Source of the DNA: Nitrospira sp.
Lineage (GTDB): Bacteria > Nitrospirota > Nitrospiria > Nitrospirales > Nitrospiraceae
Reading direction: 5' to 3'
DNA length: 63,880 nt
Assembly: GCA_005116965.1 (NCBI GenBank)
Contig: SWDG01000007.1
Location: forward strand, 1 to 63,880
Below are positions 4,635 through 20,740 of this stretch, one piece after another (position 1 is the first letter of the stretch; each line of letters starts with the position of its first letter). The translations under genes and the position numbers were made by a program. The notes below the pieces were generated by a model. The model saw only the letters and a list, made by a program, of their open reading frames with translations. It searched no databases and was not told the origin of the DNA.

Positions 4635-6212
4635 ATGGACAATCCCCCTTCTTCCGTTCCTTCCCACCTATCTCACGACGCGTTGGAGCAAATTACCCTC
4701 CAGATGGCGTCGAGTCTCGACCTTCATGAGGTACTCACCACGATCACGCAAGGATTGGTCGACGAACTGGACGGCGCCTTCGCCCGCATCTGGCTGTTAG
4801 GTTCCGGCGATCTCTGTGCCGAGTGTCACAAAGCGGCAGACTGCACGAATCGGGCTCGTTGCCTGCACCTTGAGGCGAGTGCGGGACTCTACACCGACCT
4901 CAACGGGGAATATCGTCGCATTCCACTGGGGGCACTGAAGATCGGAAAGATTGCCCAAGGCTTTGGACCGATGCAGACGAACGATGTGCTGGGTGACGAT
5001 CGGCTTCCGAATAAGCAATGGATCAAGGATCACGGGCTCCGGTCCTTTGCCGGGTATCCGTTGAAATTTCGCTCCGATCTGCTCGGCGTGATTGCGATGT
5101 TTGGGCGACGACCATTGAGCGAACAAGAGTTCGAGCGTTTGGCAATCTTTGCCAATCAAGCCGCGATTGCGATCAAGAACGCGCAACTCTTTACAGAAGT
5201 CGCACAACTCACACATCGACTTGAGGCGGAGAATCTCTATCTCCGCGAAGAGATCAAACTTGACCATAATTTTGAGGAGATCGTCGGTGAGAGTCCGAGC
5301 ATCAAGGCTGTGCTCCGACTCATCGAACAGGTCGCGCCGATGGATTCGACGGTCCTGATCCGGGGAGATACAGGGACCGGCAAAGAATTGCTGGCTAGGG
5401 CCGTTCACAACCTCAGCCATCGTAAAACCCGTTCGCTGGTGAAGGTCAACTGCGGAGCGATCCCCGCGAATTTGGTCGAAAGCGAGCTCTTCGGCCATGA
5501 GAAGGGATCGTTCACCGGGGCATTACAACGACGCATCGGCCGATTTGAGTTGGCGGACGGTGGAACCATCTTCCTGGACGAAGTCGGAGAGTTACCGCTC
5601 GACGCACAGGTCAAGCTCCTACGGGTACTACAAGAAAGGGAAGTCGAACGAGTCGGCAGCGGCCATGCGATCAACGTCGATGTGCGAGTCATTGCCGCCA
5701 CGAATCGAGATCTTCATGCAGCGGTGAAGGCCGGTTCATTCAGGGCCGATCTTTTGTATCGACTGAACGTGTTCCCGATCGACGTGCCATCTCTGTCCGC
5801 CCGTGCCTCTGATATCCCTCTCTTGGTCAACCGATTTGTCGCCAAGTTCTCACACAAGATGGGCAAGAAGATCGATGGGGTGTCTCACGCGACCATGGAA
5901 CGACTCACGAAGTATGCGTGGCCCGGCAACATCCGCGAGTTGGAAAACGTCATCGAACGGGCCACGATCCTCGCGAATGGACCGATGCTTCAGATCGACG
6001 AGGTGATGCTTCAGGGGAACTCTGCCCCGCTGTTGCCGGTCGCCGATTCCCTGGAAGAGGTGGAACGGGCTCACATCCTCCGCATCCTTCAGGATACAAA
6101 CTGGGTCATTGAAGGGAAGCAGGGCGCCGCGACTCGACTTGGTCTTCATCCCAACACCCTTCGATCCAGGATGCAGAAGCTCGGCATCAAGAAACCTCTC
6201 CCCACCGCATAG
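4635..6212 (+). CDS. Sigma-54-dependent transcriptional activator, GAF-AAA+-Fis type
   Basis: This 525-aa enhancer-binding protein opens sigma-54 promoters by ATP hydrolysis. An N-terminal GAF sensor domain (about 20-185) contains four closely spaced cysteines at 61, 64, 70 and 76, which could bind a metal or cofactor. The AAA+ domain has Walker A GDTGTGKE (244-251), the sigma-54 contact loop GSFTGA (291-296) with Ser in place of the usual first Ala, and Walker B FLDEVGEL (313-320). A Fis-type helix-turn-helix closes the protein (about 485-520). There is no receiver domain, so the GAF ligand probably sets activity. The next gene has a sigma-54 promoter and an upstream inverted repeat, making it the obvious target. 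Confidence 0.92.
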   Translation: MDNPPSSVPSHLSHDALEQITLQMASSLDLHEVLTTITQGLVDELDGAFARIWLLGSGDLCAECHKAADCTNRARCLHLEASAGLYTDLNGEYRRIPLGALKIGKIAQGFGPMQTNDVLGDDRLPNKQWIKDHGLRSFAGYPLKFRSDLLGVIAMFGRRPLSEQEFERLAIFANQAAIAIKNAQLFTEVAQLTHRLEAENLYLREEIKLDHNFEEIVGESPSIKAVLRLIEQVAPMDSTVLIRGDTGTGKELLARAVHNLSHRKTRSLVKVNCGAIPANLVESELFGHEKGSFTGALQRRIGRFELADGGTIFLDEVGELPLDAQVKLLRVLQEREVERVGSGHAINVDVRVIAATNRDLHAAVKAGSFRADLLYRLNVFPIDVPSLSARASDIPLLVNRFVAKFSHKMGKKIDGVSHATMERLTKYAWPGNIRELENVIERATILANGPMLQIDEVMLQGNSAPLLPVADSLEEVERAHILRILQDTNWVIEGKQGAATRLGLHPNTLRSRMQKLGIKKPLPTA

Positions 6213-6234
6213 CGACGCATCTCACGTTCTACTC

Positions 6235-6268
6235 CCACGAGATATCGTAGCTCCACGATATTTCGTGG
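6235..6268. promoter_or_regulatory. Inverted repeat, candidate enhancer (UAS) or terminator
   Basis: Two 13-bp arms, ccacgagatatcg (6235-6247) and cgatatttcgtgg (6256-6268), form an inverted repeat with one mismatch. The repeat lies about 115 bp upstream of the -24/-12 promoter at 6368, a usual distance for a sigma-54 activator site. The right part also forms a perfect 8-bp hairpin (6251-6258 with 6263-6270) followed by a T-rich stretch, so it could instead end the activator transcript. Both roles are possible. Confidence 0.5.
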
Positions 6269-6367
6269 AGGCGTCTCTCTTTTCTTCTGCTTCATCTTGC
6301 TGCGAATAGTGCGGCAACTGGCTGTTTCTCCAGCGCTTTATCGTGTTTCCCTGATCGTCGTGACGCG

Positions 6368-6383
6368 TGGCACCGGCCTTGCC
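6368..6383 (+). promoter_or_regulatory. Sigma-54 (-24/-12) promoter
   Basis: The sequence TGGCACCGGCCTTGCC matches the sigma-54 consensus TGGCACG-N4-TTGCA, with GG at 6369-6370, GC at 6381-6382 and the required 10-bp gap. It lies 93 bp upstream of the DsrE-like gene start and just after the sigma-54 activator gene. It is expected to drive 6476-8070. Confidence 0.7.
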
Positions 6384-6475
6384 ATGCAGATAGATATCGC
6401 GATCGATCCATAGGACACAACAAGGCAAACAGACATCCACAATCTCGTGAGTGTCATTCAATCAAGGGAGAACCC

Positions 6476-6850
6476 ATGAAAACAGCGATCATCATTCTGT
6501 CCGATCCGAAGAGTGGTTCAGAGGAAGCGCTTGGACGAGTCTTTAATGCGCTGGCGCTCGCGTCTGAATGTAAACAGAAGGGCGATGACGTCGCCGTTGT
6601 CTTCAATGGCGCTGGCACTCGTTGGCCGGCTGAGCTCACCAAGCTCTCACATCCAGCCAATGGTCTCTACAATTCGGTGCGTGACGTCGTGCAAGGCGCC
6701 TCATGCGGTTGCGCCGAGGTCTTTGGGGCAACCGAAAGCGTCAAGGCCTGTGGCGTGCCAATTGTGAAAGACCATGCCCTCGCTGGAACCGCGGGGCTCT
6801 TGAGCCTGCGCCGGTACGTAGCCGAAGGGTGGAATACGATCGTGTTCTGA
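6476..6850 (+). CDS. DsrE/DsrF-like small protein
   Basis: This 124-aa protein has a DsrE-like Rossmann-type fold: [26 protein letters not shown] at the start (a beta strand then a helix), VAVVFNGAGT in the middle and GWNTIVF at the end. Cysteines in ASCGCAEVFGA and KACGV sit where DsrE relatives carry redox or sulfur-transfer residues, but a role in sulfur trafficking is inference only. The start has a strong ribosome site (aagggaga). It is the first gene of a likely operon behind the sigma-54 promoter at 6368, with PNPOx-like and DUF1348 genes after it. Confidence 0.8.
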   Translation: MKTAIIILSDPKSGSEEALGRVFNALALASECKQKGDDVAVVFNGAGTRWPAELTKLSHPANGLYNSVRDVVQGASCGCAEVFGATESVKACGVPIVKDHALAGTAGLLSLRRYVAEGWNTIVF

Positions 6851-8537: not shown

Positions 8538-9569
8538 CTACTTGGTCACGCTGATTTCTACCCGGCGGTTCTTCGCCCGCCCCTCGGTGGTGACATTCGG
8601 CATCACCGGCTTCGTATCAGCGACTCCTATTGAATGGGCACCAGAGAGCCCGCCGTCTGCCAATGCTTGCGCGGCGTTCGTTGCTCGTGCTTCGGACAAT
8701 TCCTTGTTGGTCGGGAACTTCTTCTTCAGTGCGCCGAGGATCGGCCGATTGTCGGTATGGCCTTCAACATGAACTTTATACTCTGGGAAATCCTTGAGGA
8801 TGGACCCGACCTGTTTGAGCGCATCGGCTCCAGCAGGCTTGAGCTGGTCTTCGCCCGACCCGAAGAGGTAGCCCGAAGCTAGGTTGATAAGCAATCGCTC
8901 GTTATTGAGATCAACAGTGATATTTTTTTCATCGATTTGCGGCTTGAGTGCCCTGATCAATCCGCGCTCCGCCTGCTTCAATTTCGCCATCTCTGTGGAG
9001 AGGTCGCCACGAAGACCCGCGAGCTCCTTGTCTCGATCGGCTAATTGGGACTCAAGGTCGGAGTTGCGTTGCCTCAACGCTGCTAACTGTGACTCCGACT
9101 CCGCCGCCAGCCGGTCATGATCCCCGCTGTGTTGTCTCGCCGCAGCCAGTTCCGCTGCAAGCCGATCTTTCTCACTCTGTGCAGCCGAAAGTTGACCTGC
9201 GAAGGCCGCATTGTCACCGGCTCCAGAACGAAGCGTGGCAATTTCCCGATCACGGTCGGCGAGTTGTCGTTCCAATTCACTGACACGGCTGCTGAGGGTT
9301 CCGTTTTGCCGTCGCGCCGCTTCCAGTTCCTCGGCTAATCGTGACCGATCTCGTTCCAGCGCTGCAAGACGTGCAGCCATTTCTTGCGAGGCATCGGGTG
9401 CCACAACTTTTGTCGTGGAGGGACACCCAGTGCCCTGGTGGTAGCCATACCATTTCTTATCAACACACACAGTGGGTTGCTTAATATAGCTGTCAGAATG
9501 CTTCAGAGAAGAACACCCTACCAGAGCGACAAGCCCTGCCATCAGTAGAACACCTTTAGCTAATCGCAT
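8538..9569 (-). CDS. OmpA-family lipoprotein with coiled coil
   Basis: The ATG at 9569 follows aaggaggt at good spacing, giving 343 aa. A lipoprotein signal ends in the lipobox LVGC (Cys19). Residues about 65-205 are a long coiled coil of heptads (RLAEELEAAR, ELERQLADRDREIATL), followed by a C-terminal OmpA domain (about 225-343) with VHVEGHTDNRP and LSEARATNAAQAL for peptidoglycan binding. It probably bridges outer membrane and cell wall. It lies in a minus-strand envelope block with mscL and a DUF481 gene, each with its own strong ribosome site. Confidence 0.88.
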   Translation of the reverse strand: MRLAKGVLLMAGLVALVGCSSLKHSDSYIKQPTVCVDKKWYGYHQGTGCPSTTKVVAPDASQEMAARLAALERDRSRLAEELEAARRQNGTLSSRVSELERQLADRDREIATLRSGAGDNAAFAGQLSAAQSEKDRLAAELAAARQHSGDHDRLAAESESQLAALRQRNSDLESQLADRDKELAGLRGDLSTEMAKLKQAERGLIRALKPQIDEKNITVDLNNERLLINLASGYLFGSGEDQLKPAGADALKQVGSILKDFPEYKVHVEGHTDNRPILGALKKKFPTNKELSEARATNAAQALADGGLSGAHSIGVADTKPVMPNVTTEGRAKNRRVEISVTK

Positions 9570-9651
9570 GAGGACCTCCTTCGTATCCATATAGCAGCAG
9601 GAATGGGATCACTACTCCCCCACGCCGTATTGCTGGTTATACTGTTGATAT

Positions 9652-10074
9652 TCATTGGCGGTGCTTGAGGAGATCGCGGATTTCCGTCAACAGTTTCTCC
9701 TCATTGCTCGGCGCCGGAGGAGGCGGCGGTGGGGCTGCAGGCGCTTCTTTCTTAAACCGATTCACCTGTTTGACCAACATGAAGATGACAAAGGCGACGA
9801 TGATGAAGTCGAACACGCTCTGTAGAAAAACGCCGTAATTAATCGTCGGGGCCCCAGCAGCTTTGGCTGCGGCTAGAGACGCAGGGGATGTTCTGGACAA
9901 ATCAATGAAGAGGCTTGAAAAATCTACCTTGCCCATCAGTAACCCAATGGGCGGCATCAGCACATCGCTGACCATGGACGACACGATCTTTCCGAATGCC
10001 CCACCAATAATCACACCAATCGCCATATCCAGGACATTCCCCTTCATGGCGAACTCTTTGAACTCTTTCAGCAT
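9652..10074 (-). CDS. mscL: Large-conductance mechanosensitive channel MscL
   Basis: This 140-aa MscL homologue opens under membrane tension to release solutes on hypo-osmotic shock. The N-terminal amphipathic helix [20 protein letters not shown], the pore helix [22 protein letters not shown] and TM2 ([18 protein letters not shown]) are all typical, followed by the cytoplasmic bundle [13 protein letters not shown] proline-rich linker of eight or more prolines and alanines precedes that bundle. The ribosome site taaggagga is strong. Confidence 0.95.
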
Positions 10075-10122
10075 AGTGTTCCTCCTTATAAGAACGCAGC
10101 TCCGTACGAGGCTACAAGCAGC

Positions 10123-11226
10123 CTATCGTGTGCGAGTGGTGTCGAACGCATACCCCAACGTAAGCAAGTATAAATTATCGGTATCGCCCGTGCCGGCAGG
10201 CGGCCGATTGTTGTAGCGCGTGGTCACCTGGAATCCGCTCGCCAGACCGGCCAAAATCTTCATGCGAACCCCGTTATCCATCGTAAAGAAGAAATCCGAC
10301 GCGTTCTGGACCGAGGGGAATATTTCATTGTAATGGTACAGCGTGACACGGCCATCGAACAGCGGCCAATCCAATTTCATGGCCACGCGCGCGCGAAAGC
10401 TCCCTCGATCAGCGGTGATGCTATTATCCCGGTAGTCCTCGTTAAAATACGTTGGACCGGCTTCGGCGTAGAAGGTCATATCCTTAAAAATACCCTTCAG
10501 ATCTCCACGCTCAAGGAATTGGTACCCCGGTCCACTGGAGATCGCTGTTCTTAACTTGAGGTTTTGGAGAAAATCGTTTTCCACATAGGCCGACGCATAC
10601 CAGAAAAACCGTTTCGTGATAAAGAAGTCCAGCTTGATCGTGCCGCGGGCATTCCTGACCTGTAAACTACCGTTGTTGTCTGCATTGACGTAGCGACCCA
10701 GGAGGGTCAGCCGGAGCTGCTCACTGCGTGCCACAAGATCTCCCAGAACACTCACGTTCCGGAGATGGCTGTTTCCCACGGATTGCGAGTAGCCCGCGTT
10801 AAGGCTCCCGGAGTAGATGACCGGCGACTGAATGACCGGGTTCACCTGTGTCACGGCATTGATCGGAACCGTCATCGTGTTTCCGTTTGGCCCAGCCTTC
10901 ACCTTCATCGTCCCCGGTTCTCCCTCTTCGGCCGTACCAACAAGTACGGTCCCCTCCTTTAAATGAAAAGGTACCGGGTGCGAGACCGCCAGCTTGGTCA
11001 CTTCAGCCCATTTAAGCTTGATGATATCGCCTGCCAGAGAGTTCTTGATCTGTAGTAACCCGCCCGACATCTCGATCACTTCACCATAGATGATACTGCC
11101 GTCTTTTAAGGTCACGACATCAAGGATCGGTGCCGGCGTAGTCGCGAGCGCCCCATCATCAGCAAGACTCGGCGTCGCCATCGCGCCCAGAGCTAAGACT
11201 GCGACCAGTAACATGAGTGGCTTCAT
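10123..11226 (-). CDS. DUF481 outer-membrane protein (YdiY-like)
   Basis: This 367-aa exported protein has a signal peptide ending ATPSLA at about residue 22. An N-terminal segment (about 35-130) has two small SH3-like beta units (VTLKDGSIIYGEVIEMSGG). The C-terminal DUF481 beta-barrel domain runs from about 140 to 367 (SLNAGYSQSVGNSHLRNV, and an aromatic-rich end). DUF481 members include a salt-induced outer-membrane protein. Neighbouring mscL and OmpA genes fit an osmotic or envelope role, which is inferred. The ribosome site gaaggagg is good. Confidence 0.85.
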   Translation of the reverse strand: MKPLMLLVAVLALGAMATPSLADDGALATTPAPILDVVTLKDGSIIYGEVIEMSGGLLQIKNSLAGDIIKLKWAEVTKLAVSHPVPFHLKEGTVLVGTAEEGEPGTMKVKAGPNGNTMTVPINAVTQVNPVIQSPVIYSGSLNAGYSQSVGNSHLRNVSVLGDLVARSEQLRLTLLGRYVNADNNGSLQVRNARGTIKLDFFITKRFFWYASAYVENDFLQNLKLRTAISSGPGYQFLERGDLKGIFKDMTFYAEAGPTYFNEDYRDNSITADRGSFRARVAMKLDWPLFDGRVTLYHYNEIFPSVQNASDFFFTMDNGVRMKILAGLASGFQVTTRYNNRPPAGTGDTDNLYLLTLGYAFDTTRTR

Positions 11227-11496: not shown

Positions 11497-12195
11497 CTAG
11501 TTCTGGTGAGAAACGCCTTCACGTCCATGCGGATCCTTTTCTAATTGCACATAGTAGCGTGCCGCCTCGGATCGCCTGGAGATCTTCAAACGCTTGTAGA
11601 GTTTTTGTAAACGAGTGGCTACCCCACGCGGCACAAGATTCAATTCTTGTGCAATCTCCTTGTTGGTCTTCCCGAGAGCCACCAGAGCGAGTAGTTGTTG
11701 ATCGTCTTTCGAACAGGTATAGGGGATCCGCTCTTGTCCAGGCAACGCTCCATCCTGAACCCACGTGATGACCTGCTGAGTCAATTGCTGATCCATGATC
11801 GCTCTCCCACTCGCAACGATCTCAATACTCCTCGCAACCGCCTCAGCCGCTGCGCCCTTCAGCAGGTAGCCGTGCGCATCGGCCATGATTGCTGCTCGCA
11901 GAAGCTCCTTATCGTCATGCGCCGTAAAAAAGAGAACACCGATGGTTGGATGTGACTCACGGATGGCTCTACACACGTCGATTCCACTCGCTTGCCCCAC
12001 GCGAGCCTCTAACATCACGACATTCGGCTGGTGAGCCTGTATCGCGTCAAAGGCTTCGGAGGGAGTACGAACAATGCCCAGGATTTCGATATGGGGAGCT
12101 GTGGAAAGGAAAGTCTTGAGCCCATGCAGAGTCAGAATAGAATCATCGATCAGCAACACACGAATCGGTGCTCGTATTCCAGTTACTTTGTTCAT
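11497..12195 (-). CDS. NarL/LuxR-type response regulator with Glu at the phospho-acceptor position
   Basis: This 232-aa protein has a receiver-like domain (about 10-125; acidic pair D17 D18, Thr and Lys motifs TAHDD and YLLKGA) and a LuxR-type helix-turn-helix (about 165-220; ALGKTNKEIAQELNLVPRGV). The residue that is normally the phosphorylated Asp is Glu63, in VVMLEARVG. This could mimic phosphorylation or make the protein independent of a kinase. No kinase gene is adjacent. It may control the envelope genes next to it. Confidence 0.88.
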   Translation of the reverse strand: MNKVTGIRAPIRVLLIDDSILTLHGLKTFLSTAPHIEILGIVRTPSEAFDAIQAHQPNVVMLEARVGQASGIDVCRAIRESHPTIGVLFFTAHDDKELLRAAIMADAHGYLLKGAAAEAVARSIEIVASGRAIMDQQLTQQVITWVQDGALPGQERIPYTCSKDDQQLLALVALGKTNKEIAQELNLVPRGVATRLQKLYKRLKISRRSEAARYYVQLEKDPHGREGVSHQN

Positions 12196-12377: not shown

Positions 12378-12614
12378 TCATATATCCTCTCCCATGGTAA
12401 GGTGGCGCTCAGTGTGACGGCGCCTTGGAGCGATCTTCCCAGCAGATGCAAACCCTTTGTCATATTGGGCCGCAAGATTTTTAAGCATCCTCAGATTCAC
12501 CATCGCCCCACAATTCACACAGCGCAACGCGCCCCGCCCTGCTGCTTGCTCTGCAAGGTCTTCATCTGCACCGAGCTCAACAATCATCAATCCACCACAT
12601 CGTTTACACCGCAT
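12378..12614 (-). CDS. Small zinc-ribbon protein
   Basis: This 78-aa protein begins with a CxxC pair (MRCKRCGGLM) and has a second CxxC (LRCVNCGA) about 28 residues later, a treble-clef or zinc-ribbon arrangement. The C-terminal third is basic. The function is unknown; it may bind nucleic acid or protein. It lies about 40 bp downstream of the 103-aa gene that follows a candidate sigma-54 promoter and could share its transcript. Confidence 0.65.
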   Translation of the reverse strand: MRCKRCGGLMIVELGADEDLAEQAAGRGALRCVNCGAMVNLRMLKNLAAQYDKGFASAGKIAPRRRHTERHLTMGEDI

Positions 12615-12654: not shown

Positions 12655-12966
12655 TTACACAGCCCTCAGGGGCTTGAGTGAGGACGCGCGACGTGTCCGA
12701 GATCGACCTGACCTTGGAGCGATCGCACCGATCTGATCAGAGCCAGAGGCGTTCAACACCCTGCAGATGTCCACAAAGAAATCGACGAATGCACCAATCA
12801 GCACTTCGCGACAAGCCGATTCCTGAATTCCATTTAAATGCTTCCACTGCCCATTCACACGATGCAGCACGGCCAATCGATGCGTGTTCACTCCCGCGCG
12901 AGATGCCGTGGTTAACAGGTAATCCTGTCCGTTGTAGTCTTCGACGAGTAGCCCTGGTGTAGTCAT
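12655..12966 (-). CDS. Hypothetical protein, candidate sigma-54 target
   Basis: This 103-aa protein belongs to no family I recognise. It is soluble, with a beta-rich first half (GLLVEDYNGQDYLLTTAS, RLAVLHRVNGQWKHL), a hydrophobic helix (VLIGAFVDFFVDICRVLN) and a basic, Arg/Ser-rich tail. A gagagg ribosome site precedes the ATG. It is interesting for its control region: a -24/-12 promoter at 13052-13067 and three phased palindromes at 13146-13201 lie directly upstream, after the gene of a sigma-54 activator. Confidence 0.6.
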   Translation of the reverse strand: MTTPGLLVEDYNGQDYLLTTASRAGVNTHRLAVLHRVNGQWKHLNGIQESACREVLIGAFVDFFVDICRVLNASGSDQIGAIAPRSGRSRTRRASSLKPLRAV

Positions 12967-13051
12967 GCTTCTGTACCTCTCTCATCACATTTCTATTGAT
13001 AATCGTCTTGCAACGGATACTGCCGACTTCCTCTTGACGGCATGACATGAT

Positions 13052-13067
13052 TACAAACCGCGTGCCA
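13052..13067 (-). promoter_or_regulatory. Candidate sigma-54 (-24/-12) promoter
   Basis: On the minus strand the sequence TGGCACGCGGTTTGTA matches the consensus TGGCACG-N4-TTGCA except for T in place of C in the -12 element. The 10-bp gap between the GG and GT dinucleotides is correct. Transcription would start near 13041 and read into the gene beginning at 12966. Confidence 0.6.
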
Positions 13068-13145
13068 CATCACTACACAAGTGAAGGCCTATGCATAATC
13101 AATCGGTTGCATTGAATGGATGGATTGGCGAGGCCGTCTCCGCTG

Positions 13146-13201
13146 TGTCGGCATGAAACAACGGCGTGTCTCATGAGACAGGTGCCCTGCCGCATGAGAC
13201 A
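13146..13201. promoter_or_regulatory. Three phased palindromic operator-like sites
   Basis: A perfect 14-bp palindrome TGTCTCATGAGACA (13167-13180) is flanked by two imperfect copies, TGTCGGCATGAAACA (13146-13160) and TGCCGCATGAGACA (13188-13201). Their right halves are spaced 20 and 21 bp, i.e. two helical turns, so one protein face could contact all three. They sit about 80-135 bp upstream of the candidate sigma-54 promoter, a typical enhancer position, and downstream of an activator gene that encodes a Fis-type helix-turn-helix. Confidence 0.65.
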
Positions 13202-13323: not shown

Positions 13324-15126
13324 CTAACGAGGATCGATATCAAGCTCGACGAGGCGGCGATAGAACGTCGCCCTACTGACACCCAGCCGTCTGGCGGCCT
13401 CCGTCCGATTGCCTTTGGCATCGGAAAGCGCCGCGAGGAATCGAGATTTCTCGTCCCGGTTCGGCAACGGGATCCACACGGAAGAACTGGGTACAACGGG
13501 GGCACTGATGATCTCCGGCGGGAGATCAATGGGAAGAACCTCTTTCGTCTTGCAGCTGATCACTGCAAATTCGATGGCACTCTTCAGTTCACGCACATTA
13601 CCGGGCCATGCGTGGCTCATGAGAAGCCGAAGGGTGTCGGGATTCAGGCGCTCGATCGTCTTCCCCGTGGCGGTGCAGATTTGCCCGAGAAGAGATTGGG
13701 CGAGAAGCGGGATGTCCTCGCGTCGTTCACGTAAAGGGGAAAGCTGGACTCTGGCAATACGAATTCGGTAGAGCAGATCCGCTCGGAAGGACCCACGAAC
13801 GACGTCTTCACTCAAGTTATGGTGGGTGGCCGCCACGATACGCACATCGATTTTGCGAGGCTTGGCCTCTCCCAGACGGGTGATCTCCTTTTCCTGCAAC
13901 ACCCGCAAGAGAGCCGTTTGGACTTGCTGCGGGATATCCCCAATTTCGTCGAGGAACAACGTGCCACCCTCTGCAGCTTCGAACAATCCTTGCTGATCAT
14001 TCACCGCCCCGGTAAAGGCTCCACGCTTGTGGCCGAAGAGTTGGCTCGTCAGAATCGAGTCTGTCAATCCGGCGCAGTTAGCGGCGATGAACGGCTTATG
14101 TTTTCGACCGCTGCAAGAATGAATGGCACGCGCGATCAGCTCTTTTCCGGTTCCCGTTTCCCCTTCGATCAACACGGTGCTATCGACCTGCGCCACGTCT
14201 CGCACAAGTTGGTACGTGCGAAGCATCGCGGGACTCTTCCCCACCAGGTCGTGAAACGACGCCTGCTCGTTGAGCGCCCGGCGGAGCGTATGGAGCTCGG
14301 TGCGGTCATGCAGGATGACGATATGCCGATCGGGGTGGCGTGGATCTCCGCGGACTTCTATCTCAACCCAACGGGGGCGAGGTCCTTCGATGCACACGAC
14401 GCAAGTCTTCCGTGGGTCCGAGGCGGTATCGATCAGCTCTCGAATCGGCGCACGATCTTGTTTGTGAAGAGGAAGTGCTTGCTCCCATTCCTGGCCAATC
14501 ACGGCTTCGGCTGTCATTCCCAGGATCTCAAGACCGCGATCGCTGGCGAACGTAATGTGTCCGCGTTCATCGAGAACCAATGCGGCGAGCCCGAGGTGCT
14601 GAAGCAGAGCCAGTGCATCGTCCTTTGTGCGTTCGCTGGCTTCAAGCTCACTGATCAAGCGTGTCTCAGTCTTACGGTAGGACTTCGCGGTACGTTCTTC
14701 GGCCAGCATGCGTTCGCGCGCCCGCTGAACGATGGCCCCCATCTCCTCGAAGCCGGAACCTAGACGCTCAATGAGTAACACCTTCTTGGACCCAATCGAC
14801 AGTGCGGTGGCCTCCAATGTCATGGTGCCGCCCTGTCGATCAGGTTCCGTCCATGGGCCAGACTTCTCAGGTGCGCCCAACTGACCTCCCCAGATTGGGT
14901 GAGCCCCAACAAGGTAATCCCGCAGGAACGGCGAGCATTGGCCCAGGTCTAGCACCGTCCCGTTCGCCGGACCGACCCACTGGCGCCACCATTCAGGCGG
15001 GAGACCTTGAAGCCGAAACTCGGCCGAATCCTCCTCGCACTCAAACATCACAATGTCGAGAGTGGAGAGAACCGCATTGAACAGAGACTCGTTGTGCAGT
15101 GCGAGGTTGCCTGGCCGGCTTTTCAT
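13324..15126 (-). CDS. Sigma-54-dependent activator with novel N-terminal sensor and PAS domain
   Basis: The start is ATG 15126, overlapping the GTPase stop (ATGA), giving 600 aa. Residues 1-125 are an unrecognised domain (LFNAVLSTLDIVMFE, LPPEWWRQWVG) also suited to partner binding. A coiled coil (about 130-170) and a PAS domain (about 172-275) follow. The AAA+ domain has Walker A GETGTGKE (322-329), an intact GAFTGA loop (369-374) and Walker B FLDEIGD. A Fis-type helix-turn-helix ends the protein (GNRTEAARRLGVSRATFYRR). It lies in an overlapping operon with a Ras-like GTPase and an OmpA-like membrane protein, which suggests those proteins regulate it. Candidate targets lie just downstream. 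Confidence 0.9.
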   Translation of the reverse strand: MKSRPGNLALHNESLFNAVLSTLDIVMFECEEDSAEFRLQGLPPEWWRQWVGPANGTVLDLGQCSPFLRDYLVGAHPIWGGQLGAPEKSGPWTEPDRQGGTMTLEATALSIGSKKVLLIERLGSGFEEMGAIVQRARERMLAEERTAKSYRKTETRLISELEASERTKDDALALLQHLGLAALVLDERGHITFASDRGLEILGMTAEAVIGQEWEQALPLHKQDRAPIRELIDTASDPRKTCVVCIEGPRPRWVEIEVRGDPRHPDRHIVILHDRTELHTLRRALNEQASFHDLVGKSPAMLRTYQLVRDVAQVDSTVLIEGETGTGKELIARAIHSCSGRKHKPFIAANCAGLTDSILTSQLFGHKRGAFTGAVNDQQGLFEAAEGGTLFLDEIGDIPQQVQTALLRVLQEKEITRLGEAKPRKIDVRIVAATHHNLSEDVVRGSFRADLLYRIRIARVQLSPLRERREDIPLLAQSLLGQICTATGKTIERLNPDTLRLLMSHAWPGNVRELKSAIEFAVISCKTKEVLPIDLPPEIISAPVVPSSSVWIPLPNRDEKSRFLAALSDAKGNRTEAARRLGVSRATFYRRLVELDIDPR

Positions 15127-15644
15127 AAGCAATCCCTGGGGATCGGAGCTGCATGTACGATCTGGGTTGCCAGCGTCACAAATAACTCTTCGACTCCCTG
15201 CCCATGCTTGGCACTGCCGAACAGTACCGTCCAGCCTCGTTCGCGCAGCTGTTCGATCGCGCGCTCATCGATTTCCCACTCAGATCGAACATCCGCTTTA
15301 TTGATGATCGAGATGAACGGAACCGCTCCTACTGTTCGTAAGGCGGTCTGCTGTAGCGCGAGTGCCGTGTCCAAGGTCGCTCTTCTAGTGCCATCCATGA
15401 CCAAGATGTAGCCGGATGAACCGCGAAGATACGAGTCGCGCACTCGTTGGAACTCGTCTTCTCCATAGAGATCCCACAGCACCAGCATCACGTCCCGGTC
15501 GTCGACCGTGACACTCTTCTTCTCCACGGTCACGCCGATCGTCGTGTGATAGTGATCAGAAAACACGTTACTCACAAATCGGCGCACGAGGCTGGTCTTT
15601 CCGACCGCGAATCCGCCCAACATGCAGACTTTCTTCTGCATCAT
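15123..15644 (-). CDS. Ras/Rab-like small GTPase
   Basis: This 173-aa single-domain GTPase of eukaryotic-like Ras/Rab type has G1 GGFAVGKTS (10-18), a switch I segment TTIGVTVEKK, G3 WDLYGED (57-63), G4 NKAD (115-118) and G5 SAK. The residue after the G3 glycine, Gln in Ras, is Glu62 here, so intrinsic hydrolysis may be slow or need a partner. There is no lipidation or membrane motif. Its start overlaps the OmpA-like gene stop (ATGA) and its own stop overlaps the activator start (ATGA), so the three products are made together. It probably acts as a GTP-dependent switch between them. Confidence 0.88.
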   Translation of the reverse strand: MMQKKVCMLGGFAVGKTSLVRRFVSNVFSDHYHTTIGVTVEKKSVTVDDRDVMLVLWDLYGEDEFQRVRDSYLRGSSGYILVMDGTRRATLDTALALQQTALRTVGAVPFISIINKADVRSEWEIDERAIEQLRERGWTVLFGSAKHGQGVEELFVTLATQIVHAAPIPRDCL

Positions 15645-17413
15645 GGACCAACCGCCTCATTCCCTTGATTCGCGACCGTGAGGGTGGCTCGTAAAGTGAC
15701 GATCCGCCGGTCGCGGGCTTCTCCTGTTGACCCCAGTTGGACGATAGATTGCCCAAGTCCCGTAATGACGGTCGTAGCCTCACCAAGTTGCTCCCCTCCG
15801 AGGGCCACGAGCACGGCGTGGGCTCGTTCCTTGCTCAGCTGAATATTGCGTGTCACAGGACCAGTGTTGTCGGTCGACCCCAGTACTTCGAGCCTCACTC
15901 GCTGGCCTGATTGGGATGCGGCTTGGTCCAGCTCTCCTAACGCAATAGACACAGCACCAAGCGTGGCACGTTCCGATGGTTCCACTATCGATAACCCCGA
16001 GCGAAAGCGAACGACCGTTCGATTGACCCGTTCGAGGAGATCCGGGATGGAGGTCGTGACGAGTCCTTCGTCACGGTAGAGGGAAATTCCTGGCACCAAG
16101 GTAGCCAACCGTTTCGTCTCTCGGGCCCACTCGATGGAAGCCGAGCCAGTTGCGACAAGCGTGTCTCCCTCCACGGACAGTTTAACGGTTGTGGGGGCGT
16201 GCAACATCGAGTGCGCTCTGGTCTCGACGAGTTGAGGGTCCAGCGAGTAATAGGGAGACCAGACAGCCTTGATGCTCGATGGCTCAAGGCCAGCCTCAAC
16301 CACCATCGCCGAAGGGTCTTTGGCCAAGGGGTCTCGCAACCCCTCGAGGTGATAGCCTGTCAACGTCGATTTTGCCACGGTGACAACCATGCCCGGCTCA
16401 GTCCCAAGTTCAACCAGCAGATTGGACCACCGCGCATGGGTTTGGTAGGCCATGACACCCCACCACGAGAGCAAGAGGATCATCACCCCGCCCAGAATCC
16501 ATAGCTTCAAGGCGCTGGGTCGCGGTGGTGCTTCATAGTGGGCATGCAAACAGTTTTCCAGACAGATCTGTGTCGTTTTAAACGGCGCCGCGTCTCCATC
16601 AAAATGGGTCAAGGCATCGGGTTGCTGCGCATGAATATCATCCAGCGCGGCTTGAAAATCCTCCCTGAGGGTTTCAGGGGGAGTACCCCGAACGACACCG
16701 GCCAAGTAGGCGTGGGACCCCTGTTCAATCCACACGGTCCATTCACCAACTCGAAAATGGTCGAGCGTCTGGTCTGGTGACGCGCCAAACGAATCCCGCA
16801 CATAGCTCTGAATCGCCGTCAGCATGCCGGACAAGACCTGCTGATCCTGAACCACAGCCCCCTCGGCTGCCACGTGATGCAGGAGAAGGCCTGTCTCCCG
16901 ATGGATAAGAAACACTTGTTCCACGCGATAGCGGAGCGTATGGAGCAGTACGACCTCCGCGAACGGTCGCCCTGTCCGCCAGGCTTCCAATCGCCAACGA
17001 AGGCCTCGGACGGACAGGCTTTCATCCAACGAGTGGTTAAAGGACTGGGTCATGCCTTGCAAGGCACGCGCGATGGCCTGCCGAATGGCTGGCCCCATGA
17101 TTGGGGCGATCGCATCGACGATCGCCCGTGGCGACTTCCGTATGGTCGTGACAAATCCGTTCTCGACGTAGGGAGTCAGAACCGTCGATAACTGTGGATC
17201 TCTCTCCCCACGAACGGCAAATGCCTCAGGAAGTACCCGGCTGATATCACGAGGCTGAACCGCCCGATTGTCGAGCCGATCCCGGAGTTCGTCAAGTTGT
17301 GTCTGCTCCGGAGAGAGTAAAAGCGTGCGCAGCTGGGTCCAGTCTTCGTCTACGGACGTGTATCCTTCAGAAGATGGAGAATCGCGATGAGGCCTGTGTG
17401 GATCGGTAGACAT
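15641..17413 (-). CDS. Single-pass membrane protein with C-terminal OmpA-like domain
   Basis: The ATG at 17413 gives 590 aa, with a TTG twelve bases upstream as an alternative; neither has a strong ribosome site. A large cytoplasmic region (1-300) includes helices and an alpha/beta segment around 160-265 (VFLIHRETGLLLHH, SGMLTAIQSYVRDSFG). One TM helix lies at about 302-322. The remainder would be periplasmic, with a BON-like segment near 395-440 and an OmpA-like peptidoglycan-binding end (about 480-585; VRLEVLGSTDNTG, LSKERAHAVL). It could report cell-wall state inward to the overlapping GTPase gene product. The family is not one I can name. Confidence 0.75.
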   Translation of the reverse strand: MSTDPHRPHRDSPSSEGYTSVDEDWTQLRTLLLSPEQTQLDELRDRLDNRAVQPRDISRVLPEAFAVRGERDPQLSTVLTPYVENGFVTTIRKSPRAIVDAIAPIMGPAIRQAIARALQGMTQSFNHSLDESLSVRGLRWRLEAWRTGRPFAEVVLLHTLRYRVEQVFLIHRETGLLLHHVAAEGAVVQDQQVLSGMLTAIQSYVRDSFGASPDQTLDHFRVGEWTVWIEQGSHAYLAGVVRGTPPETLREDFQAALDDIHAQQPDALTHFDGDAAPFKTTQICLENCLHAHYEAPPRPSALKLWILGGVMILLLSWWGVMAYQTHARWSNLLVELGTEPGMVVTVAKSTLTGYHLEGLRDPLAKDPSAMVVEAGLEPSSIKAVWSPYYSLDPQLVETRAHSMLHAPTTVKLSVEGDTLVATGSASIEWARETKRLATLVPGISLYRDEGLVTTSIPDLLERVNRTVVRFRSGLSIVEPSERATLGAVSIALGELDQAASQSGQRVRLEVLGSTDNTGPVTRNIQLSKERAHAVLVALGGEQLGEATTVITGLGQSIVQLGSTGEARDRRIVTLRATLTVANQGNEAVGP

Positions 17414-17475
17414 GGGGTAACACAATCGTCATGGACTCGATAGATCACAAAGAGACTGCCCACGGCCCGCTGTTG

Positions 17476-18102
17476 TTAGGTTGAGCCGCGACCGGAGACT
17501 GCCTCATCACTGGATAGCCGTTGAGATGCCTCCAATAAAATGGCTGCGAGCGTCGCACGATCCGTCTTTTCTGCACGGAGATCATGGACGGCCTGATTGA
17601 GTGCCGACGTCGCCTCGGCATGTCGAGCACGCACATCGGTCGCCAGCTCGCTCGTCCGTTCTGTCAGCTGCTGGAGAACATGTGCTTGCACTTCGGTCGC
17701 CTGCATATCGAGCAGACGTGCTTTATCCTCAAGGGTTGTCGCCAGTTGGGTAAGGTCCTGTGTCAGGTTCGTGACGGATTCCCCTCGGACTTCCTGCTCC
17801 TTGGTCAACCGACTCGTAAGCGCCTCAACTTCTTTCTTGATGTAGAGCTCAAGGCTCTCAAAACGTCGCTTGAGATCGTTGCGGAGGTCCGAGGCTTCAC
17901 GGATTAAATGTTGTTCGAGTTGCGCAAACCGACGGTCATGTTCTCGGGCTTGCGCGCCAAAGAGAATGTCGCGAATCTTGTCGAGATTCCCGCTTGCGGA
18001 TCGATCGTCAAGGTGTGCTGCTCCACCGACTTGGTCCGAGTCTGTCGCGGGGTCGTCGCGAGCGATCAGGGGCTGGTCTGTGGAGCGTGCTGTGCCCATC
18101 AT
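17476..18102 (-). CDS. Soluble coiled-coil protein
   Basis: This 208-aa protein has a gaggtg site before the ATG; a second ATG follows immediately. Residues about 45-195 are nearly continuous heptad helix (RRFAQLEQHLIREASDL, YIKKEVEALTSRLTKEQEV, LTERTSELATDVRARH) with no catalytic motif, preceded by a polar, disordered N-terminus. It is the first gene of the GTPase-activator operon, 62 bp before the OmpA-like gene, and may be a scaffold or a polar-organising partner. No family was recognised. Confidence 0.7.
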   Translation of the reverse strand: MMGTARSTDQPLIARDDPATDSDQVGGAAHLDDRSASGNLDKIRDILFGAQAREHDRRFAQLEQHLIREASDLRNDLKRRFESLELYIKKEVEALTSRLTKEQEVRGESVTNLTQDLTQLATTLEDKARLLDMQATEVQAHVLQQLTERTSELATDVRARHAEATSALNQAVHDLRAEKTDRATLAAILLEASQRLSSDEAVSGRGST

Positions 18103-18358: not shown

Positions 18359-19156
18359 TTATCCGTTCACGAGGTGAACGTCGTGACGAGAAGAGGGCAA
18401 CTCGATACCATGCGTCCGGAATCGTTCGAGAATCAACTTGTTCAACTCCCCCTGAACCACGTTGTAGTTGGTCACAGCCGCCCATGGCTCCACGGCTAGA
18501 GCGATTGACGACTCTCCTAGAGACGATACTCCTACGGAAGGAGCAGGGTCTTTCAAGACCAACGGGTGCTGTTGAAGGATATCCTTCACGTGCGCCAGCG
18601 CGTCATCGATTTTGACGCGCTGTGAGAGGGGGACCGTCAGATGCAGCTGACGGATGACACCGAAATTATGCAGGATTTCCCCGACAATTTTTCGATTGGG
18701 AATGAGGACGCGTGAATGGTCAGCGTGCATCAGCGTCGTGGTGAAGATATCAATGACCATGACGTCACCGTGAACTCCAAGCAGCGAGATATGTTCGCCG
18801 ACCTTGTAGGGTTTGCTGAAGATAATCGACAGCCCCGCCATCACATTGCTCAGGACACCCTGCAAGGCCAACCCAACACCCACGCCGGCGACTCCGACAC
18901 CGGCGAGCAGCGGAGCGATGGGCACACCCAGAGTTTGGAGCGCGATCATCGCCGTAAACAGTATGACGATGATTTTCACGATACGCACCAGGAGCAGGCG
19001 CACTGGTGGCTCAAGGGTCTGTTTTTCAAGCGCCTGTTGGGTAAAATTGGCGGCCCCACGAGACGCCATCATGCCGCCGATGAGGATGCCGAGCGCGACC
19101 GCCGCCTGCAACCCGTACTGCACGGCATATTGAGTGAGCGTATCCAGCATATTCAT
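18359..19156 (-). CDS. Small-conductance mechanosensitive channel (MscS family)
   Basis: This 265-aa MscS-type channel has three N-terminal TM helices (about 15-100), the last being the Gly/Ala-rich pore helix (VGVAGVGVGLALQGVLSNVMAGL-like region, described here only in part). The beta domain begins KPYKVGEHISL and the alpha/beta C-terminal domain contains HNFGVIRQLHLTVPL. Length and order match the minimal MscS core. It follows the AsmA-family gene by 12 bp on the same strand. The channel relieves turgor on osmotic downshift. Confidence 0.93.
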   Translation of the reverse strand: MNMLDTLTQYAVQYGLQAAVALGILIGGMMASRGAANFTQQALEKQTLEPPVRLLLVRIVKIIVILFTAMIALQTLGVPIAPLLAGVGVAGVGVGLALQGVLSNVMAGLSIIFSKPYKVGEHISLLGVHGDVMVIDIFTTTLMHADHSRVLIPNRKIVGEILHNFGVIRQLHLTVPLSQRVKIDDALAHVKDILQQHPLVLKDPAPSVGVSSLGESSIALAVEPWAAVTNYNVVQGELNKLILERFRTHGIELPSSRHDVHLVNG

Positions 19157-19168
19157 AGAGATAGTTCC

Positions 19169-20740
19169 TTATCGACCGAATAATCCTTTGAGCAGCTCTT
19201 TCCCATCTTTTTGAAGGTCCTCGGGCTTTGTCGTCCCTTTGAGCAGCCCATCGACGGCTTCTTCGACCCTCTTCCTGACCTGCTCCTGCACTTTCCCGGT
19301 GAGGCCCTTGACATCAACTCCATACGCGGGGGCTTGAGCCGTTCCGGTAATCGTGAGCGGGAGACTCAATCGGCCGTCTTTCAAGGCGATTTTGACGACG
19401 GGCGATGCGGCGGCAATCTTTTGGCTCATCTCTTGGGAGAGGTTGAGATTCACGGCAAGGTTCACTCGCTGATCAAACCCGATCGTGCCGCCGCCAGTCG
19501 CCTGAAAATCATGGCTATCCATCATGAGCCGCTGCACATTGATCACCCCTTGCTTAATAGCGAGATCCGTCTCGATCGTCGAAAAGGCCGTGGCCTTCGC
19601 ATCGCCCAGGGACATACCGGCCACGTTGAGGGCTGAGACCACTTCCTGGAGAAGATTCACCCCTTCGATTTTTCCATCTTTCACGGCCATGTGCCCAGTT
19701 CCCTCTAAGGCCTTGGTCAGATCCGGCATCGAGAACCCACGCCCTTGCACCGACAGGTCCATACCGGCCGTCCCACTGATGGAGATCGGCGTCTCGGCAA
19801 CAGCATCGAGCGCCGGACCGAGTTGTAATCCTTGAATCGTCACCGCCCCTTTGAATGGAGGCATGTCTGATCCGGCGATCAGTTTGCCTTGCCCCTTCAC
19901 CTCACCGTCGAACAGGCGGAACGCCAGGGATTTCAGCTTGGCCTCTTGCCCTATCACTTCCGCCGAAATCTGGAGATCCTTGATCTCAACCGGGGTCTTC
20001 AGGGGAAGCGCAATCGGTACGTTCGCCGTATTGATCACCGGCGAGGTGATATTGATGATGGCATCATTCCCGGCGGCCTTTCCTGTAATGGCAAAGTCCG
20101 TCTTTCCCACACCAAGCTGGAAATTGATCGCATCAATGTCCAGCGTCTCTCGCAATGGACCAAAGGTGCCGTCGAGTTTTACCGGCAGATTGAATGGTTG
20201 CACCAGTGAGCCGACATGCACACTTGGCGTCTGCCCAAGCCGCACTGACTGCAGCAGCACCTCCAAATCTTGTAATACATATTCCGTCGGCTTAGCGGCA
20301 GAGAGATCACGGTAGGTCAATTTCCCACCGTCGATCGATACACGGTCCACGGCCAGCAGCGCCAGAATCTTGAGCGGCCCCTCCGTTGAAGGAATCGGGG
20401 CGCGCGAAGGTTTCTCCGGCACCGGCACACCTTTACGGCCGATGGTGGAAACGTTCAGCACGCCCTTCTGGTTCTTGATCACCGTGATGACTGGTTGGCG
20501 AAGCGTGATTTCCTCCACTTCGACTTTGCTGCTCAGCAGTGGCATCAACTTCACACCGACTTCCAACGACGCACCAGAGAGAGTGCGCCGTGGACTCGTC
20601 GTGTTCCGGTGATGATAATCCTCTTGTGAGGTGGGAGATGCCGCCCGGATTGTACGGGACCAGCAGTCCCTATACAAGAAATCTCTCCTGCCTAGGTGGT
20701 TGAAGAACAGAGCCACATCCGCTAGCATGGCGGCCACCAT
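19169..20740 (-). CDS. AsmA-family protein lacking its N-terminal membrane anchor (5'-truncated)
   Basis: Recognisable AsmA sequence begins only near residue 54 (about base 20581) with LSGASLEVGVKLMPLL and continues to the end with VEVEEITLRQPVITV, GTAGMDLSVQGRGFSMPDL and FDQRVNLAVNLNLS. The preceding 53 residues are Arg/His-rich and unlike the family. The usual N-terminal TM helix and roughly 90 residues are absent, and no other minus-strand frame upstream restores them. AsmA-like proteins act in outer-membrane lipid or protein assembly and are anchored in the inner membrane, so this copy may be non-functional or initiate internally, for example at the in-frame ATG near 20545. It precedes the MscS gene by 12 bp. 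Confidence 0.7.
   Translation of the reverse strand: MVAAMLADVALFFNHLGRRDFLYRDCWSRTIRAASPTSQEDYHHRNTTSPRRTLSGASLEVGVKLMPLLSSKVEVEEITLRQPVITVIKNQKGVLNVSTIGRKGVPVPEKPSRAPIPSTEGPLKILALLAVDRVSIDGGKLTYRDLSAAKPTEYVLQDLEVLLQSVRLGQTPSVHVGSLVQPFNLPVKLDGTFGPLRETLDIDAINFQLGVGKTDFAITGKAAGNDAIINITSPVINTANVPIALPLKTPVEIKDLQISAEVIGQEAKLKSLAFRLFDGEVKGQGKLIAGSDMPPFKGAVTIQGLQLGPALDAVAETPISISGTAGMDLSVQGRGFSMPDLTKALEGTGHMAVKDGKIEGVNLLQEVVSALNVAGMSLGDAKATAFSTIETDLAIKQGVINVQRLMMDSHDFQATGGGTIGFDQRVNLAVNLNLSQEMSQKIAAASPVVKIALKDGRLSLPLTITGTAQAPAYGVDVKGLTGKVQEQVRKRVEEAVDGLLKGTTKPEDLQKDGKELLKGLFGR

Follow-up and report, generated by a model that had tools for sequence, protein, structure and literature searches.

In a 63,880-nucleotide stretch of Nitrospira sp. 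DNA (the window), the gene for a sigma-54 activator (EBP) stops at 13324 and the gene for a 103-aa protein starts at 12966, both on the minus strand. What does the gap between them do, which protein acts on it, and which genes does it serve? Read on both strands, the gap contains an array of palindromic sites followed by a promoter-like element. Judged by gene order, conservation and homology, this segment probably serves as output promoter for a Group 1 Rup signalling system, where the EBP would bind the sites and drive an operon encoding a LuxR-type regulator. The elements of the gap are as follows.

13188–13201, no strand: predicted upstream activator site 1, TGCCGCATGAGACA, two mismatches to the palindrome, +21 from site 2
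13167–13180, no strand: predicted upstream activator site 2, the perfect palindrome TGTCTCATGAGACA
13147–13160, no strand: predicted upstream activator site 3, GTCGGCATGAAACA, −20 from site 2, a good half-site only
13052–13067, minus strand: predicted sigma-54 −24/−12 promoter TGGCACGCGGTTTGTA, with a predicted start near 13041

In the direction of transcription, the order is TGTCTCATGCGGCA (13201–13188), TGTCTCATGAGACA (13180–13167), TGTTTCATGCCGAC (13160–13147) and TGGCACGCGGTTTGTA (13067–13052). The perfect palindrome, its two imperfect copies at 20–21-bp steps and the −24/−12 element are present as an earlier note on this DNA had stated. On the minus strand (13067–13052), TGGCACGCGGTTTGTA is one mismatch from TGGCACNNNNNTTGCW, and it aligns with TGGCAYGAGGATTGTT in relatives. 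Compared with YTGGCACGrNNNTTGCW, the GGC at −24 and the spacing are kept. The −12 element is atypical: of 19 promoters aligned, 17 have TTGT or TTGA rather than TTGC, with GT or GA in place of the GC doublet. The genome has rpoN, and the promoter at 13052–13067 is predicted to be RpoN dependent.

Plain motif counts in the window give the array no support. A bare pattern search for the palindrome returned five matches at three or fewer mismatches, against 3.1 expected, which is not significant, and −24/−12-like matches in the whole window are at chance level (34 versus 31.5 expected). Geometry and conservation are instead what indicate that the array is real. When the 357-bp gap was Markov-shuffled, 542 of 20,000 shuffles contained a perfect 14-bp palindrome, and none of the 20,000 had flanking copies as good as those observed at 19–22 bp. 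The density of exact half-sites is also about 55-fold higher over the 250 bp behind the EBP gene than over the remainder of the same loci (6.15 versus 0.111 per kb). The array is beyond chance.

Thirteen Nitrospira genomes have this array and promoter in the corresponding position, and five others have a variant form. Measured from the −24 element in the 13 genomes, site 1 is at about −124 to −128, site 2 is 103–108 bp away and site 3 is at −81 to −87. In the deeper clade (G021, G024, G025, G029 and G032), TGTCTCCTGCGACA accompanied by additional TGAGACA half-sites precedes TGGCAYGAACCTTGAT by about 80 bp. TGGCAY..TTG is found at a fixed distance in 18 genomes and also occurs in G046, a member of a different family, where TGTCCCACGCGAGACA-type sites and TGGCATGCGCTTTGCA lie behind the EBP gene (L129). 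Sites directly behind the EBP gene are likewise present in Ca. Nitrospira defluvii, and named records add further cases. An exception is G034, in which the small gene and the activator are on different contigs and other sequence follows the activator; contamination of this assembly is put at about 6%. In more distant Nitrospirales, the EBP operon is retained but the EBP gene is not followed by such sites. Either the promoter link therefore arose after the operon, or those lineages have lost or relocated it.

The exact palindrome occurs in 7 of 35 genomes of the genus, including that of the window, once per genome and always at this locus; all seven belong to the 13 genomes with the array, and there it is the central site. 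It is also present in two genomes of other genera (G042 and G051), and the Rup operon was detected in neither. Genome-wide scans were pattern searches. A search for further sites beside −24/−12 elements, proposed in the earlier note, found the arrangement only here: the pattern TGTCTCAN{85,115}TGGCAY revealed no wider regulon in the genome, and the other closest near-matches to the palindrome (L002, L003 and L004) are intragenic, or intergenic with no evident −24/−12 element. Similarly, TGTCTCCTGAGACA in G055 (L080:17089) has no evident −24/−12 element nearby. An apparent duplication of the activator 3′ end and the palindrome in G013 and G022 (L028:8430–9550 and L030) would have left a shortened activator copy ahead of the small gene.

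The protein encoded immediately before the array is the following.

13324–15132, minus strand: sigma-54 activator (EBP), 602 aa, with a PAS-like Rup-output domain containing Gln136, a PAS domain, an AAA+ domain with GAFTGA and a Fis-type HTH

Domain searches returned Sigma54_activat (E 4e-67), HTH_8 and PAS_4, and the AAA+ domain with its GAFTGA loop, together with the C-terminal Fis-type HTH, defines the protein as a bEBP. Its scores are below the equivalog cut-offs for NifA (322.7 of 528.9), NtrC (309.3 of 558.6) and PEP_resp_reg (PrsR; 294.7 of 502.6). A profile of the N-terminal domain matched proteins from Cyanobacteria, Acidobacteria and Desulfobacteraceae whose genes adjoin rup (E 1e-30 to 1e-40) and did not match the unrelated activator of the window, EBP2. 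This domain has a PAS-like predicted fold (pLDDT 89), with Gln136 in the helix after the PAS core. All 69 sequences compared, namely that of the window, 43 rows for EBPs and 25 others, have Gln136, which would correspond to the invariant Gln described for Rup output modules. Residues of the HTH differ with the sites: GNR..SRAT is common to EBPs with adjacent sites and GKR..SRST is found in those without, a correlation that partly follows phylogeny.

The activator is the last gene of an operon that begins at 18102, the other members of which are listed here.

17476–18102, minus strand: 208-aa cytoplasmic protein, putatively of coiled-coil type after the 2014 description, encoded at the head of the Rup operon
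15641–17425, minus strand: membrane protein, 594 aa, with a conserved N-terminal domain, a TM helix and a C-terminal OmpA-type peptidoglycan-binding domain
15123–15644, minus strand: Ras-like small GTPase (Rup), 173 aa, Pfam Ras E 2.7e-30 over residues 5–162, overlapping the activator gene start

The published description of Group 1 Rup systems gives them four components: one protein of coiled-coil type, one of DUF-TM-OmpA architecture, a Ras-like GTPase whose G3 motif lacks the Gln, and an output protein with an invariant Gln in its N-terminus (Wuichet & Sogaard-Andersen 2014, PMC4316618). By gene content and by 48–59% identity of the GTPase to the Rup of Cyanobacteria, Acidobacteria and Desulfobacteraceae, the four genes from 18102 to 13324 match such a system. 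The GTPase is a single-domain protein, and its 173 residues are within the 150–240 aa of Group 1 Rup. Its G3 motif, WDLYGED, lacks the catalytic Gln, which was absent from that position in the 66 Rups read, and its best solved-structure matches are Rab GTPases. The 208-aa protein is conserved in Nitrospira and has homologues, at 32–42% identity, in Cyanobacteria, Acidobacteria and Desulfobacteraceae; there too, the gene directly precedes that of the OmpA-like protein. In the 594-aa protein, Pfam OmpA falls at residues 474–559 (sub-threshold), its profile matches solved OmpA/Pal domains (E 7e-7 and weaker), and the TM helix was read from the sequence by eye.

The gene order AsmA, MscS, coiled-coil protein, OmpA-like protein, GTPase, activator, sites and promoter, small gene, CxxC protein, response regulator, DUF481, MscL, OmpA is largely kept across the genus. 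The flanks of the Rup block (8538–11226 and 18359–20740), with MscS and an AsmA-like gene on one side and DUF481, MscL and OmpA on the other, suggest an envelope or osmotic theme. Ahead of the AsmA-like gene, and on the divergent strand, several genomes (L083:4770, L084:4553, L081:894, L035:17112 and L074:13731) share a conserved TGGCATGCCATTTGA, which may be another −24/−12 element.

On the other side of the promoter are the genes that it would transcribe.

12655–12966, minus strand: small gene for a 103-aa protein of no known family, at the head of the putative output operon, with 15 orthologues in the genus
12378–12614, minus strand: 78-aa protein whose two CxxC pairs may form a zinc ribbon; its place flanked by the other two genes is conserved; no Pfam match
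11497–12195, minus strand: LuxR/NarL-type response regulator (Response_reg and GerE), the most constant gene behind the promoter

The gaps between these genes, 41 and 183 bp, suggest one operon. The small gene is real, because it has 15 orthologues, and the earlier description of it as a gene of unknown family was right: the protein has no match in Pfam or NCBIfam. Its predicted fold is β4-α (pLDDT 74); the top hits of structural searches (Foldseek E 0.32, Z 4.3) are not confident. Pur-alpha and MoSub1 appear in its structure list as weak rows, of use only as a lead. The activator, enhancer, promoter, target order that had been pointed out is conserved across the genus, and the small gene had been described as resembling a dedicated output gene for the operon at 13.3–18.1 kb. 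Both that observation and its interpretation are supported. The link between the two is strengthened: all 16 genomes with the small gene also have the GTPase operon, and four have the operon with the small gene undetected (Fisher P = 2e-6). A dedicated output also fits the arrangement being unique in the genome. The interpretation needs refining in that the output would be an operon, with the LuxR-type regulator as its constant member, and not the small gene alone. The response regulator is present behind the promoter in both clades, while the small gene varies: the response regulator precedes it in the deeper clade, and it was not detected in G023. The constant target is therefore the response-regulator operon. 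In G001 (L073, about 5600–5800), a short ORF (..EGLIALIGVIFSQVTERN..) at the position of the small gene may be a diverged small gene.

LuxR-type proteins bind short dyads, and a response regulator gene lies behind the promoter in nearly every case, so the sites could serve autoregulation by the target operon's own regulator instead of the EBP. We regard this as improbable. The sites are the same in G030, where the response regulator is a LuxR-type protein of another subfamily without a tblastn match to that of the window, and the TGTC..GACA core is kept where the regulator has diverged to about 30% identity. Furthermore, the sites are 80–130 bp upstream of the −24/−12 element, a typical position for an EBP, and their presence goes with the HTH type of the EBP. 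Because the sites follow the EBP gene, lie at enhancer distance and persist when the response regulator is exchanged, the EBP is the best candidate to bind them. Still less credible is a fortuitous −24/−12 element, with the palindromes serving a sigma-70-type promoter or working at the RNA level, as a hairpin or as the EBP gene's terminator. The chance rate of such elements in the window and the non-canonical −12 would fit that explanation, but not the fixed placement of TGGCAY..TTG in 18 genomes and its presence in G046. Standard scans of the gap also returned no sigma-70-like or terminator-like site, and no T-run follows the palindromes.

A weightier alternative, which we still consider doubtful, accepts that the EBP activates this promoter and has its own PAS domains, responding to a ligand or to redox state, set its activity while Rup works elsewhere. 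The EBP has two PAS-like domains, and PAS-containing EBPs without a partner kinase are common. Against this, its N-terminal domain is the same as that of the Rup-linked outputs of other phyla, with the invariant Gln, and the rup and EBP genes overlap. Control of the EBP by the GTPase is the reading that gene order and homology suggest. Conserved docking sites and a promoter most likely make one neighbouring regulator operon the dedicated output of the EBP.

In the mechanism that we propose, the OmpA-like protein, anchored in the membrane and peptidoglycan, and the coiled-coil protein would sense the state of the cell envelope and set the nucleotide state of Rup. The target of Rup would then be the N-terminal domain, PAS-like and carrying the Gln, of the EBP encoded beside it. 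Through its Fis-type HTH, the EBP would bind the three TGTCTC-type sites about 84–127 bp upstream of the −24 element and, with ATP, open the sigma-54 promoter at 13052–13067. Transcription of the genes for the small protein, the CxxC protein and the LuxR-type response regulator would hand the GTPase signal to a second regulator. A more specific version, offered tentatively and with less than even confidence, is that Rup directly gates the sigma-54 activator, so that an envelope signal reaches a single dedicated promoter, and that Gln136 supplies the hydrolysis Gln in trans, making the EBP both effector and GAP.

With Group 1 Rup systems the locus shares a DUF-TM-OmpA protein, a Ras-like GTPase with a G3 motif without Gln and a Gln-bearing output N-terminus, together with a putative coiled-coil protein; it differs in that its output is a sigma-54 activator, directly followed by a conserved and probably cognate promoter. 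Where the output gene is complete, Nitrospirales loci almost always encode a sigma-54 activator. The Rup loci of other phyla have other output proteins, and kinase or GGDEF motifs were recognised in a few of these. With NtrC/NifA-type regulation the locus shares a GAFTGA AAA+ domain, a Fis-type HTH, dyads about 80–130 bp before a −24/−12 element and an adjacent target. Here, however, the EBP has no receiver domain and no partner kinase gene, and its predicted site is TGT-N8-ACA, whereas the NifA site is TGT-N10-ACA. The MglA/MglB polarity system and actinobacterial conservon systems similarly couple a small Ras-like GTPase to bacterial signal transduction. In the 2014 classification, MglA forms a family of its own and has MglB as partner. 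No such partner was recognised in the Rup operon, and the output here would be transcriptional.

According to the 2014 paper, Group 1 Rup are the bacterial proteins very similar to eukaryotic Rab, Ran, Ras and Rho, none of them characterised experimentally at that time; the outputs named are cyclic-di-GMP enzymes or histidine kinases, and the main text does not mention sigma-54 activators (PMC4316618). In the literature searched, we found no later paper on Group 1 Rup, no sigma-54 activator as a Rup output, no record of the palindrome itself and little work on sigma-54 regulation in Nitrospira. There thus appears to be, in Nitrospirales, a Rup system with a transcriptional output and an identifiable promoter target. 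A sigma-54 output with a neighbouring promoter would make Rup pathway activity readable with a simple reporter, through which Rup switching and signalling become directly testable. The locus also provides a predicted binding motif and target operon for Nitrospira, which are key nitrifiers.

The window contains a second activator–promoter pair. At 4635–6500, the gene for a GAF-EBP (EBP2) is followed by the inverted repeat CTCCACGATATTTCGTGGAG, by TGGCACCGGCCTTGCC and then by a target operon. The parallel previously drawn with the order at 4.6–8.1 kb is a fair one: EBP2 and its own −24/−12 element recur in three relatives (L031, L037 and L040).
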